Shown here: positions 39,304 to 63,537 of the stretch, piece by piece
Position numbering within the stretch: position 1 is the first letter of the stretch
How the letters are laid out: each line of letters opens with the position of its first letter
NCBI RefSeq assembly: GCF_002156705.1
Contig: NZ_CP019893.1
Coordinates: 992,001-1,056,000, forward strand
Reading direction: 5' to 3'
Length of the DNA stretch: 64,000 bases
From: Natrarchaeobaculum aegyptiacum
GTDB lineage: Archaea > Halobacteriota > Halobacteria > Halobacteriales > Natrialbaceae
The notes under the pieces: model-generated
What the model was told of the DNA's origin: nothing
The model's input: only the letters and a program-made list of their open reading frames with translations
The model's database searches: none
Made by a program: the position numbers and the translations under genes

Positions 39304-39765
39304 TCACACGTCGTGTGGCACCGCGACCACCGGACAGTCCGCGTTCAACAGTAACGACTGGGTCACGCTCCCGAACAGCACCTGTCCGAGCGGCCGACGC
39401 TTCCGCCCGCTCACCACGATGTACTCCGCACCGTGCTCGGCCGCGTAGGTCCTGATCACCTCCGCCGCATCACCCACCAGCCCGACCGCCTCGTACTCCT
39501 CGAGACCGTCGACGCCGGCGGCAGCGTTCTCAGCAACCTCGGTCGCCTCCGCCTGGACGCGCTCGACGACCTCCTCGGAAAACTTCCCATTGTGAACCCG
39601 GAGCGCATCCGCAGAGACGTCGGTAAAGTCCTCCCGGAAATCGACCGTCGGATCCGCCACGTGGACCACGTGGAGCCCCACCCCGTACTCTTCGGCCAGT
39701 TCGTGTGCCTGTGCGACCACTGCTTCAGAACGACCGGAACTGTCCACTGCCGCGACGATTGCCAT
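39304..39765 (-). CDS. Universal stress protein (UspA family)
   Basis: 153-residue single UspA domain. AIVAAVDSSGRSEAVVAQAHELA opens the fold and VVHVADP follows. The nucleotide-binding loop VVSGRKRRPLGQVLFGSVTQSLLLNADCPVVAVP (about 115-150) follows the G-2x-G-9x-G-S/T pattern, so ATP binding is likely. Start at ATG 39765; the longer open frame to 39990 overlaps the tRNA-side spacer. Convergent with the Lrp-family regulator gene. Confidence 0.9.
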   Translation of the reverse strand: MAIVAAVDSSGRSEAVVAQAHELAEEYGVGLHVVHVADPTVDFREDFTDVSADALRVHNGKFSEEVVERVQAEATEVAENAAAGVDGLEEYEAVGLVGDAAEVIRTYAAEHGAEYIVVSGRKRRPLGQVLFGSVTQSLLLNADCPVVAVPHDV

Positions 39766-39868
39766 ACCTGCCGTTTCGACGTCGCCCGTATTAGGACTGC
39801 GGCCCTCGGGCGTCGACCACCGCTGGACAGGTCCACGCTGGTAGCTCACGGACTGGAACGCGACGACG

Positions 39869-39890
39869 CGCTCGAGACGGGACTTGAACC
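39869..39890 (-). repeat. Degenerate copy of the tRNA-Asp 3' end
   Basis: This 22-bp stretch matches the last 22 nt of tRNA-Asp (acceptor and T-arm) at 20 positions, with two transitions. It is about 120 bp downstream of the tRNA at 40010-40082 and resembles an integrase core-site relic. Confidence 0.5.
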
Positions 39891-40009
39891 ACGCCGAGAC
39901 GTGCTCGTTGCGCTGCGACCGACTCGTTCGAATCCCTGGTTGTCGGCCTCCGACTTCGGATGTTCGCGACCGGTAAGACCGGTCGCTCACGGATCGAAAA
40001 TCGAAGAAG

Positions 40010-40082
40010 CGCCCGAGACGGGATTTGAACCCGTGTCACGACCGTGACAGGGTCGTATGATAGGCCACTACACCACCCGGGC
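40010..40082 (-). tRNA. tRNA-Asp (anticodon GTC)
   Basis: The minus strand folds as a complete 73-nt tRNA. The acceptor GCCCGGG pairs with CTCGGGC plus discriminator G; the anticodon stem CGACC/GGTCG carries the loop CTGTCAC with anticodon GTC; the T-arm is GGGTTCAAATCCC. The 3' CCA is not encoded. A CCTTAAG-like box at about 40110-40117 is suitable as the promoter. It is identical to the copy at 42056-42128. Confidence 0.96.
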
Positions 40083-40105
40083 TTGCAACTGTTCGTTTCC
40101 CGGTG
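40010..40105. repeat. 96-bp direct repeat containing tRNA-Asp, copy 1
   Basis: Bases 40010-40105 are identical to 42056-42151 and include the whole tRNA plus 23 bp of 5' flank. Sequence identity stops abruptly on both sides. Confidence 0.85.
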
Positions 40106-40282
40106 AGACGCTTAAGGGTTTTGTTCCGCATCGATCGCTGTCTTGCTATCTCGAACCACGATCCGAGTCGACGAGCACGTTCGTCGAGCGCTGCCACCGA
40201 CTCGAGGGGCACGTGGCACGGCCAGCGTATCGCGGCGAAGGCGACAGGTTGCGATCGGACAGCGACGGGACACACGACGAGG

Positions 40283-41428
40283 TCACGATTCGACGGCTGG
40301 CAACGAAAACGAGAACGTCGATCCGCCCTCGGGGTCAGACTCGACCCAGATCTGGCCGCCGTGGTGCTCGACGATCCGCTTGCAGAGCGCGAGGCCGATG
40401 CCGGTCCCGGGGTGTTCCTCCCGACTGTGGAGTCGCTGGAAGACGTCGAAAATTCGATCCTGATCGTCGGAATCGATACCGATCCCCCAGTCGCGAACCG
40501 AGACGACCCAGTCTTGACCCCGCCGGTGGGCACTGACGTGAATACGTGGCGGCTCGTCACCGCAGTACGTGATCGCGTTACTCACCAGATTCTGGAACAC
40601 CTGACGTAACTGCCGACGGTCACCATCGACGAGCGGGAGTGAATCCCACGTGACGGCTGCGCCACTCTCGTCGATCCGAACGTGCAGGTTCGCGAGTGCA
40701 TCCGTGAGCACGTCGTCGAGGTCGACCCTGTCGAACGAATCACTGTCCGCCTCGACGCGGGAGTACTCGAGCAGCCCGTCGGTCATCTCCTGTAAGCGAT
40801 CGGCCCCGTCGATCGCGAACGCGACGAACTCCCGGCCGTCCTCGTCGAGTGCGTCGGCGTACCGATGCTCGACCAGCGTCAGATACCGCGTGATCATCCG
40901 CAACGGTTCCTGCAGGTCGTGGGAGGCGGCGGAGGCGAACTGCTCGAGCCGATCGTTCGACTCCTCGAGCAGCGCCTGCATCCGCCGCAGTTCCCGATTA
41001 CGACGGTCGACTTCCAGCGCTCGCGTCCTGGCTCGAGCGTCGTAGATGCCGACGCCGAGCCCGGCGACGCTGCTGAGTGCCGTGAACATGAGGAAGCTCC
41101 GGTGCGGGTTCCGAAAACTGTCTGCGGGCTGAAAATGGTAGAGCGACAGAATTGCAGTCATGACGACGATCGCCCCGAGACACCACTGACCGATAACGGG
41201 ATAGTAATTGGGGGTGATATCGTACGCTGGCAAGCGATGGGCCCCATAGATGAGTATCACGCCCGGCCCCACGATCAACGCCGTCACGATGAGAACGTTG
41301 AGAGATGGCTCGCCGCCGGTCGCTCGAACGTACGCCCAGCCGCCAGCAAACACGATATACGCCGCCCCGAGGGTGGCGACCGTTCGCCGCCCAGTGGTTC
41401 CGGAGACCGTCCCTCGCGCAGGAGACAT
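40283..41428 (-). CDS. Membrane histidine kinase (HisKA-HATPase)
   Basis: 381 residues. Four membrane helices (LGAAYIVFAGGWAYV, LIVTALIVGPGVILIYGA, WCLGAIVVMTAILSLYHF and MFTALSSVAGLGVGIYDA; about 20-130) form the whole input region with no large extracellular domain. A coiled coil leads to the H-box AASHDLQEPLRMITRY (about 180), then N (QNLVSNAITYCG), G1 (DWGIGID), F and G2 (GTGIGLALCKRIV) boxes. It autophosphorylates and passes phosphate to an unseen response regulator. The gene lies between the two identical tRNA-Asp copies. Confidence 0.92.
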   Translation of the reverse strand: MSPARGTVSGTTGRRTVATLGAAYIVFAGGWAYVRATGGEPSLNVLIVTALIVGPGVILIYGAHRLPAYDITPNYYPVIGQWCLGAIVVMTAILSLYHFQPADSFRNPHRSFLMFTALSSVAGLGVGIYDARARTRALEVDRRNRELRRMQALLEESNDRLEQFASAASHDLQEPLRMITRYLTLVEHRYADALDEDGREFVAFAIDGADRLQEMTDGLLEYSRVEADSDSFDRVDLDDVLTDALANLHVRIDESGAAVTWDSLPLVDGDRRQLRQVFQNLVSNAITYCGDEPPRIHVSAHRRGQDWVVSVRDWGIGIDSDDQDRIFDVFQRLHSREEHPGTGIGLALCKRIVEHHGGQIWVESDPEGGSTFSFSLPAVES

Positions 41429-42055
41429 TGCACCCGGTAAGCCGAGAGTTGCGATATGCGTTTTGGAGTGAGATATCGTGCCACATCTCGAGAGCGGCTT
41501 CGATTATTGGTTGAATGTACAAACCAGGTGAGTATCACAGGACCAACCTGAAGGGGGTCTGAGCCCGCACGACGACGCCGACCAGGAGATGGACATGGAC
41601 GAGGTCCACTCCAAACCCCCGTGTGGTTTTCGAGGACCGGCGACTCGCTGGGCTCACGGCTTTGCCGTTCGCCATGTCGTGGCGCTGCGGGCCACGCACC
41701 GCTCGTCGGTTTGGTCCTGGAAAAACGCCCGAGACGGGATTTGAACCGCGGTCGCAGCGAAGCTGCTCCCTGATTCAAATCCCTCGTGTGGTTTTCGAGG
41801 ACCGGCGACTCGCTGGGCTCACGGCTTTGCCGTTCGCCATGTCGTGGCGCTGCGGGCCACGCACCGCTCGTCGGTTTGGTCCTGGAAAAACGCCCGAGAC
41901 GGGATTTGAACCGCGGTCGCAGCGAAGCTGCTCCCTGATTCAAATCCCTCGTGTGGTTTTCGAGGACCGGCGACTCGCTGGGCTCACGGCTTTGCCGTTC
42001 GCCATGTCGTGGCGCTGCGGGCCACGCACCGCTCGTCGGTTTGGTCCTGGAAAAA
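41429..42055. other. 627-bp spacer holding a 165-bp tandem repeat
   Basis: Contains the kinase promoter region, then the tandem repeat. Open frames crossing it on both strands stay open only because the 165-bp unit is a multiple of three; they repeat the same 55 residues and are not called as genes. Confidence 0.7.
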
Positions 42056-42077
42056 CGCCCGAGACGGGATTTGAACC
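41621..42077. repeat. 165-bp tandem repeat carrying tRNA-Asp 3' ends (2.8 copies)
   Basis: Units begin at 41621, 41786 and 41951 and read as exact copies by eye. Each includes the last 22 bases of tRNA-Asp (41726-41747, 41891-41912 and, in the complete tRNA, 42056-42077). The third unit runs into the real tRNA gene, where identity ends. Repeated tRNA 3' ends are the usual footprint of integrase attachment sites. Confidence 0.85.
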
Positions 42078-42128
42078 CGTGTCACGACCGTGACAGGGTC
42101 GTATGATAGGCCACTACACCACCCGGGC
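42056..42128 (-). tRNA. tRNA-Asp (anticodon GTC), second identical copy
   Basis: Same 73-nt tRNA as at 40010-40082, with no differences. It has its own upstream flank with a CCTTAATAC box at about 42154-42163, so it may be transcribed independently. The 3' end touches the 165-bp tandem repeat. Confidence 0.96.
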
Positions 42129-42151
42129 TTGCAACTGTTCGTTTCCCGGTG
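42056..42151. repeat. 96-bp direct repeat containing tRNA-Asp, copy 2
   Basis: Identical to 40010-40105; the two copies are 2,046 bp apart in the same orientation and enclose the histidine kinase gene. Confidence 0.85.
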
Positions 42152-62004: not shown

Positions 62005-63537
62005 ATGAACCGACGAGCATTCATCGTAGGAACGGGCGGTATCGGCACAGCAGCAATCGGCGGCGCAGTCGTCCTCTCGGGGTCGGCAGCGGCCGAAATC
62101 GAGGATCACACGTTCTCCGGAACGAGCATTAGCGGGGAAAGCGACGACGGGTCCGTCGACGACATTCGCGCGGGAGCGACGGGCGTCGGCTTTCGGTACG
62201 AGGGGCTCAACGAAGAGCCAGAGGAAGCGACGGTCGAACTGCAGGTGGTTCACGACGGCGACGTCGAGACCATCGACGAGGCGACGACCGACGTGAGCGG
62301 AACCAGTGATTCGAACGTCCCACTCGGCGAGGACCTCGAGGGCAGTGTCCTCGATCACGACGGTCTCTCGGCAAACGACTTCCAGGCGGACGAAGACGGC
62401 GGGATGACCGAGAAGGACGTCACCCTCCGCCTCGAGGTAACGATCACCGACGTCAGCGGGTCGAGCGAGACCGACCTGAACGTCGTCATGCGCAACACGG
62501 AAGCCCGCGCGAACGTCGGCGGCGAAGCCGAAGGCGAGGTCGTCACCGACGAAGACGAGGACGACGATGACGACGAGACGGGGCCAGTCGATGAGATCAA
62601 CGCCATCGTCGACGACGTCAACGCCGAACTCGAGAACGTCGATCCGGTCGAGACCATCGACGACACCGACGACGACACCATCGAGGGGCTGATCGAGGAC
62701 GTCTTCAGTCAGGTCACAGCCGAGATCGAAGCACAGACCGGCATCGAGTACGACGTCTCCACGCCCGAGGAAGCACGAGACGAGGCCGCCGAGGCCGATC
62801 TCCCACCCGTCGCCGACGCACTCGAGAACGCCGCCGACGCCGTCGAAGACATCGCAGACATCGCCGGTTTCGACCTCGACGACCTCGAGGACGACGATGA
62901 CGACGAGACGGGGCCAGTCGATGAGATCAACGCCATCGTCGACGACGTCAACGCCGAACTCGAGAACGTCGATCCGGTCGAGACCATCGACGACACCGAC
63001 GACGACACCATCGAGGGGCTGATCGAGGACGTCTTCAGTCAGGTCACAGCCGAGATCGAAGCGCAGGCGGGCATCGAGTACGACGTGAGCACGCCAGACG
63101 AGGCCCGCGACGAGGCCGAGGACGCGCCGCTGCCCGACATCGCGGACGCACTCGAGAACGCCGCCGACGCCGTCGAAGAGATCGCCGACCTCGCCGACTA
63201 CGAACTCGAGGACGGTGACGACGGCGACGACGAAGACGATCAGGAGGCGATCGACGAGATCAACGCCATCGTCGACGACGTCAACGCCGAACTCGAGAAC
63301 GTCGATCCGGTCGAGACCATCGACGACTTAGACGACGGGACGATCGACGACCTCACAGACGACGTCTTCAGTCAGGTCACAGCCGAGATCGAAGCGCAGG
63401 CGGGCATCGAGTACGACGTGAGTACGCCCGACGAGGCACGTGACGAAGCCGAGGACGCACCGCTGCCGGACATCGCGGACGCACTCGAGAACGCCGCCGA
63501 CGCCGTCGAGGAGATCGAATCCCTCGCCGAGGGGTAG
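62005..63537 (+). CDS. Secreted acidic repeat protein
   Basis: 510 residues. An N-terminal RR motif (MNRRAFIVGTGGIGTAAIGGAVVLSGSAAA) suggests Tat export. Residues 32-175 form a beta-rich domain (VELQVVHDGDVETIDEATTDVSG). Three repeats of about 110 residues follow (starting near 186, 296 and 407), each with DEINAIVDDVNAELENVDPVETIDD, FSQVTAEIEAQ-GIEYDVST and ALENAADAVE, separated by Asp/Glu runs that may bind cations. The first two copies share 177 identical bases, signs of recent duplication. No enzymatic motif or membrane anchor is visible; possibly a secreted structural or calcium-binding protein. Confidence 0.75.
   Translation: MNRRAFIVGTGGIGTAAIGGAVVLSGSAAAEIEDHTFSGTSISGESDDGSVDDIRAGATGVGFRYEGLNEEPEEATVELQVVHDGDVETIDEATTDVSGTSDSNVPLGEDLEGSVLDHDGLSANDFQADEDGGMTEKDVTLRLEVTITDVSGSSETDLNVVMRNTEARANVGGEAEGEVVTDEDEDDDDDETGPVDEINAIVDDVNAELENVDPVETIDDTDDDTIEGLIEDVFSQVTAEIEAQTGIEYDVSTPEEARDEAAEADLPPVADALENAADAVEDIADIAGFDLDDLEDDDDDETGPVDEINAIVDDVNAELENVDPVETIDDTDDDTIEGLIEDVFSQVTAEIEAQAGIEYDVSTPDEARDEAEDAPLPDIADALENAADAVEEIADLADYELEDGDDGDDEDDQEAIDEINAIVDDVNAELENVDPVETIDDLDDGTIDDLTDDVFSQVTAEIEAQAGIEYDVSTPDEARDEAEDAPLPDIADALENAADAVEEIESLAEG

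Follow-up and report, generated by a model that had tools for sequence, protein, structure and literature searches.

Echoes of a tRNA 3' end around a paired tRNA-Asp locus

Why should the 3' end of a tRNA gene recur several times in the immediate surroundings of that gene, and what do these echoes represent? The question is raised by a locus in the window, the whole stretch of 64,000 nucleotides analysed here, which comes from a 3.93-Mb haloarchaeal genome (G000:C1:992001-1056000; coordinates without a prefix are those of the window). Two tRNA-Asp(GTC) genes, both on the minus strand, were recovered by ARAGORN and by the Rfam tRNA model (58.9 bits for each): copy 1 at 40010-40082 (40009-40082 in the ARAGORN output) and copy 2, which adjoins rpoH, at 42056-42128. 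Both lie in a 96-bp block that is identical at 40010-40105 and 42056-42151, and thus the doubling reported in a preliminary description of this DNA is exact. The same description had placed a histidine kinase between the tRNA genes and additional 22-bp tRNA ends beside them, and both observations hold. The only large gene in the gap, as judged from its open reading frame and Pfam profiles, encodes a histidine kinase with HisKA_4TM, HisKA and HATPase_c domains (40283-41428, minus strand). The motif GAGACGGGATTTGAACC occurs five times in the window with 3 or fewer mismatches; 0.28 occurrences would be expected and 100 shuffles never gave more than 2, so that the motif is far more frequent than by chance. 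Echoes aside, the tRNA-Asp end is found at only two gene sites in the genome.

The copies at 41726-41747 and 41891-41912 are exact, and the one at 39869-39890 shows 2 mismatches in a 20-nt search. Two aspects had been overlooked earlier: the exact copies sit inside a 165-bp tandem array (41612-42077; 2.8 copies, 99% matches), and each copy is one half of a hairpin, in which it forms the right arm and an inverted T-arm forms the left. Chance repetition is ruled out by the shuffles together with a reversed-pattern control given below. Spurious ORFs cross the tRNA ends and echoes (e.g. 39304-40047 and 41623-42093, reading ..ETGFEPVSRP and ..MVFEDRRLAGLTALPF..), and haloarchaeal annotations may list ORFs of this kind as hypothetical proteins. 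Elsewhere in the window, a 330-bp repeat (62556-63517; 2.9 copies, 89% identity) encodes an acidic Asp-rich stretch.

Anatomy of the element

Read on the tRNA strand, the repeated unit opens with a trailer hairpin and continues with a left arm, the complement of the T-arm; then come a core that stays constant (TCAGGGAG-stem-CGACCGTGG) and, last, a second copy of positions 54-73 of the cognate tRNA. The element is non-coding and its unit measures roughly 90-165 bp. The target gene of the array is tRNA-Asp copy 2, and all units of the window lie on the minus strand. The trailer hairpin of unit 1 (41956-42055; predicted fold -45.4 kcal/mol) starts right at the tRNA 3' end and contains GGCGAAC..GUGAGCC with tandem G-A mismatches. 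It is followed by the T-arm hairpin (41891-41955; predicted fold -32.4 kcal/mol), which is matched by the covariance model R1 (see below) at 3.9e-12 (G000:C1:1033896-1033953). This hairpin comprises the left arm GAGGGATTTGAA, which complements T-loop and T-stem, the core TCAGGGAG-GCAGCTTCGCTGC-GACCGCGG, and a right arm (41891-41912) that equals positions 53-73 of the cognate tRNA-Asp, so that its right end is the last 21-22 nt of that tRNA. Unit 2 repeats the same trailer sequence at 41791-41890, as seen from the repeat array, the sequence and the predicted fold, and continues with a T-arm hairpin at 41726-41790 (right-arm copy 41726-41747), supported by its fold and an R1 match of 3.9e-12 (G000:C1:1033731-1033788). 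Unit 3 (41612-41725), recognised from the 165-bp array and its sequence, is truncated and retains the trailer and the start of the left arm, without core or copy.

Behind tRNA-Asp copy 1, a trailer hairpin (39939-40009; predicted fold -32.0 kcal/mol) precedes a decayed T-arm hairpin (39869-39938; predicted fold -22.7 kcal/mol), which has the core GTCGCAG..ACGTCTCGGCGTGG, the left arm GGGATTCGAA and the copy at 39869-39890. Its core is of a second type that is also found after other tRNAs of the genome; in the form GAGA..GTCGCAG...AACGTCTTCGCGTGG it takes the position of the main core at loci L154, L164 and L168 as well as at 39869-39938. Shorter echoes with the T-stem/acceptor part only (e.g. 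GGATCCCTCCCGGCCCG) follow GC-rich hairpins at L248:1100-1200, L313 and L276, and perhaps represent a third type.

The left arm could be copied directly from the 5' strand of the T-stem or could be the complement of its 3' strand, and the informative G-U positions are split between these two readings, 17 versus 11; no similarity to the variable loop was seen 5' of this arm. Manual fitting to a kink-turn/L7Ae motif found tandem G-A pairs in both hairpins, and the three-base bulge did not fit. An intron of the bulge-helix-bulge (BHB) kind is ruled out, as the tRNA in front is complete without the element.

A family of elements behind haloarchaeal tRNA genes

The hairpin pattern was detected in 22 of 41 related genomes, and the reversed-pattern control gave 0 matches. 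A stricter core pattern retrieved at least 120 stretches from GTDB genomes; among the matches listed, all strict-core records belong to haloarchaea or to unresolved hypersaline/euryarchaeal assemblies. Of 124 pattern matches, 110 are preceded by a tRNA gene on their own strand, at a median distance of 65 nt, and the tRNAs concerned represent 14 amino acids. Using 56 members we built the covariance model R1, which finds 20 copies in the source genome at E<=1e-4. All arrays there but one are situated behind tRNA genes, and by our count about 18 of its ~48 tRNA genes thus carry the element. In a survey of the phylum, R1 was positive in 35 of 40 sampled Halobacteriales genomes and in 0 of 157 others. 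When 60 matches from the surveyed genomes were fetched with their flanks as an independent sample, 57 proved to be less than 450 nt downstream of a same-strand tRNA gene (24 isoacceptors in total), and two of the remaining three are truncated where the fetched sequence stops. The distance from tRNA to copy ranges from 30 to 330 nt. Only a subset of the tRNAs in a given genome bears the element, and this subset differs between genomes.

Rfam contains no matching family; its gathering score was reached by tRNA genes only, and in the absence of a match to any curated covariance model a known Rfam RNA family is ruled out. The open literature yielded no description of the element, its nearest remark being that on partial tRNAs beside full copies in Haloferax gibbonsii (PMC7921747). 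This search covered open papers and an earlier description elsewhere is possible; this haloarchaeal element behind tRNA genes is apparently undescribed.

The preliminary description had considered a worn or captured integration site as one possibility. In this explanation the echoes would be remnants of viruses or plasmids that tyrosine recombinases had inserted at the 3' ends of tRNA genes and that were subsequently deleted, and the tRNA 3'-end copy would be the normal attR product. Indeed, tRNA genes are frequent targets of archaeal integrases (PMC8371274), and true prophage-flanking tRNA duplications occur in haloarchaea (PMC3119063, PMC7921747). Against this stand a constant structured core and a target-complementary arm that recur after many tRNA types at 30-330 nt, as well as the duplication of a protein-gene end (see below), which such scars leave unexplained. 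The strict pattern has 0 matches in IMG/VR and the relaxed pattern has one, in a provirus host flank, while a 187-bp query found no plasmid match. We regard integrase scars as very unlikely; no integrase was found, and the insertion reading proposed below needs none. The single IMG/VR match (L332:13744-14010, on a contig with viral tail genes) consists of a tRNA-Glu followed by the element and has the appearance of host DNA flanking a provirus; viruses themselves thus seem not to carry the element.

The copied end is that of the element's own tRNA

When aligned at T54, the copy shows an identity of 0.84-0.99 to its own tRNA over positions 61-73, versus 0.21-0.65 to non-cognate tRNAs, with the exception of position 61 (0.99 for both). 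At position 74 the cognate match drops to background (0.56 vs 0.50). The left arm pairs with tRNA positions 54-65, i.e. the T-loop and T-stem, and not with the acceptor. Across the T-loop variants TTCAAAT, TTCGAAT, TTCGATT and TTCGAAC, arm and copy track their own tRNA and the core stays constant. Arm and inner-stem pairs are altered on both sides in 99 cells, versus 36 expected by shuffling, and all slid controls are far lower; the mirroring of the tRNA by the arm accounts for part of this covariation.

Both the trailer and the hairpin are more stable than their shuffles (mean z -2.7 and -5.7, respectively). The trailers, which played no part in selecting the matches, are more stable on the tRNA-sense strand at 64 versus 32 loci (p = 6e-5, an optimistic value because related loci are not fully independent); tRNAs behave likewise, and downstream control stretches do not. 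Orthologous tRNAs across genera retain the element, with trailer stems rebuilt by compensating changes, which suggests that it also folds as a single strand.

These properties bear on the strongest rival explanation, namely that the element is a functional tRNA-trailer RNA, which is compatible with the insertion reading. A read-through pre-tRNA would then contain the 3' quarter of a tRNA twice, and the second one, with its T-arm hairpin and acceptor strand, could compete with the first for the acceptor 5' strand, or else a stable trailer RNA would be freed for processing, termination or regulation. The fold z-scores, the sense-strand bias of the trailers, the covarying pairs, the orthologous elements kept across genera with compensated stems, and the termination of the copy at the mature tRNA end are all points in its favor, as is an observation from H. 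volcanii: according to PMC3544259, an earlier study of this organism traced nearly all tRNA fragments to 3' trailers. The varying subset of tRNAs that bears the element in each genome speaks against it, and so does the element behind a protein gene, which copies the end of that gene as a trailer function would not predict. In a test of acceptor pairing, 27 of 74 acceptor-copy mismatches preserved pairing against 16 expected under uniform change, so that this test of a tRNA-switch model gave a weak excess, one that transition bias could explain. We consider a trailer RNA a real if doubtful possibility.

An array behind a protein-coding gene

The sole non-tRNA array seen in the source genome (G000:C1:475881-476142) has three identical 102-bp units after a gene for a DUF35-like protein. 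The gene ends in ..WDGYRFEPV*, its coding end GGTTCGAGCCGGTCTGA can fold in a T-arm-like manner, and this end is repeated in every unit. Of 41 related genomes, 35 have this gene, and its end is very similar in them. At this locus, G007, a member of another genus, has an array of its own, G030 has remnant-like repeats, G022 has only a trailer-like hairpin, and most relatives have the gene end alone, apparently an empty site. The T-arm-like end duplicated by arrays in the two genera is GGTTCGA(A/G)CCGGTCTGA. Counted from the equivalent of T54, the shared stretch extends over 19 nt in the source genome and over 13 nt in G007 before divergence, the latter perhaps through later mutation. That an unrelated gene has its end copied is predicted by target duplication, but not by a role in tRNA processing. 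No clean pair of empty and filled sites at a tRNA gene was found in two near-identical strains, and hence the length of the duplication rests on position-wise identity and the two protein-gene arrays.

The kinase gap and endonucleases at tRNA genes

Among 29 other genomes of the family, about half have paired tRNA-Asp genes upstream of rpoH, without the kinase, and such pairs recur in two further families, indicating that the pair is old. A recent tandem duplication that took the kinase along, as had been suggested, does not agree with these kinase-free pairs; of the refuting observation named in the preliminary description, an old doubling shared by relatives, the tRNA pair is borne out and the kinase is not. 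Many relatives instead have a gene for a PF11645 PD-(D/E)XK (PDDEXK_5) homing-type endonuclease at the tRNA-Asp locus. In G009, G012 and G030 the order is tRNA-Asp, endonuclease, tRNA-Asp, with the endonuclease in the place of the kinase, and in G040 the gap holds a DUF418-like gene fragment. No close full-length homologue of the kinase was found in the three other genomes of the genus, and the kinase is therefore probably a passenger in an insertion-prone gap rather than a part of the element. Near rpoH, two genomes show four tRNA-Asp genes in about 0.7 kb (L245:341-1031 and L263:609-1337; ARAGORN), arranged in pairs that overlap or are separated by less than 20 nt.

The earlier notion of an integration locus stands in part: the copies are target-type duplications and the locus is an insertion hotspot, as the endonuclease gene of the relatives illustrates, but an integrase attachment scar is not supported. 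Could the endonucleases themselves have produced the echoes, by breaking tRNA genes whose repair made the 3'-end copies and the doubled tRNA-Asp? Among 19 PF11645 matches in relatives, 16 have a tRNA gene within 1.5 kb in the fetched flank, 11 of these being tRNA-Asp, and the three genomes with an endonuclease between tRNA-Asp genes parallel the kinase arrangement. One PF11645 enzyme is encoded within a split tRNA-Lys(TTT) (L260:1430-1965, G034), which is interrupted after the anticodon with short complementary junctions (AAGCCTT / AAGGC); this insert looks like a tRNA intron carrying a homing endonuclease. The source genome, however, has about 20 elements and 0 PF11645 genes, other element-rich genomes are similar in this respect, and simple break repair does not give a constant core. 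An origin from homing endonucleases is unlikely.

Tandem growth and concerted change

At Leu, Lys, Met, Gly and Asp tRNAs the element forms tandem arrays of 2-4 units. The rpoH/tRNA-Asp locus carries 0 to 3 echoes, the number differing between species. At this locus 25 of 26 clear copies have the tRNA variant of their own species, with three variants represented, a pattern of concerted change.

A proposed insertion-type micro-element

We propose, with a probability of roughly one half, that the echoes are copies of a haloarchaeal micro-element of the insertion type, which settles behind tRNA genes, duplicates its target and grows in tandem. The element would recognise a T-arm-like sequence GGTTCRA..CC. 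On insertion, some 20 nt of the target would be duplicated, counted from T54; for a tRNA this means T54 through the discriminator base. The front copy would leave the tRNA or protein gene intact and the rear copy would become the echo. The complementarity of one arm to the target, together with folding that is specific to one strand, suggests that the element is active as a folded single strand, either RNA or ssDNA. We infer both the duplication of ~20 nt and the single-strand intermediate. The units would then multiply in tandem and be homogenised with the tRNA. In the window, tRNA-Asp 2 is followed by two full units and a truncated one, and tRNA-Asp 1 by one old, decayed unit.

Neither a transposase or recombinase gene with linkage to the family nor a long, autonomous version of it was found, and we know of no insertion mechanism in which a target-complementary arm takes part. 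Orthologous tRNAs in different genera retain the element while its stems change in a compensatory manner; this resembles a maintained function and counts against the insertion reading. A bolder version, tentative and as a whole rather doubtful, holds that this is a new, haloarchaea-only mobile nucleic acid: the target-complementary arm of the folded strand would find T-arm-shaped targets, the strand would insert downstream of the gene, which would stay intact thanks to a 20-nt target duplication, and the arm would be retuned for each tRNA. If the proposal is right, a large share of the tRNA genes across an archaeal class are followed by a so far unrecognised element in which the gene's own end is copied, which would account for puzzling partial tRNAs in haloarchaeal genomes and for many spurious small ORFs. 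It would further imply either a new T-arm-directed insertion mechanism or a new layer of tRNA processing.

Comparison with known systems

Like attR remnants of tyrosine integrases, the element leaves the tRNA in front intact and directly repeats its 3' end further downstream (positions 53-73, cognate). It differs from them in its constant core, its inverted arm, its occurrence at 30-330 nt after many tRNA types and its lack of an integrase or any coding capacity, and it seems not to be virus-borne. The loci of PF11645 PDDEXK_5 endonucleases at tRNA genes share the same target class and, in relatives, the same tRNA-Asp locus, but the endonuclease gene is absent from the source genome and the element is non-coding.

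Casposons are Cas1 elements that carry cas1 and terminal inverted repeats and generate 14-15-bp duplications. They insert at the 3' ends of tRNA genes, duplicate their target and grow in tandem, as is proposed for the element, whereas cas1, terminal inverted repeats and a 14-15-bp duplication are not seen in the element.

With MITE- and REP-like palindromic repeats, the element shares its short, non-coding, multi-copy and hairpin-forming nature as well as a probable target duplication. On inspection of the window unit and the alignments its ends (TTTTTCC.. and ..CGACCG) are not inverted copies of each other, and the terminal inverted repeats of MITEs are thus not apparent by this inspection. 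It is further set apart from these repeats by one arm that adapts to each target, by its almost exclusive location behind tRNA genes and by its probable ~20-nt duplication.
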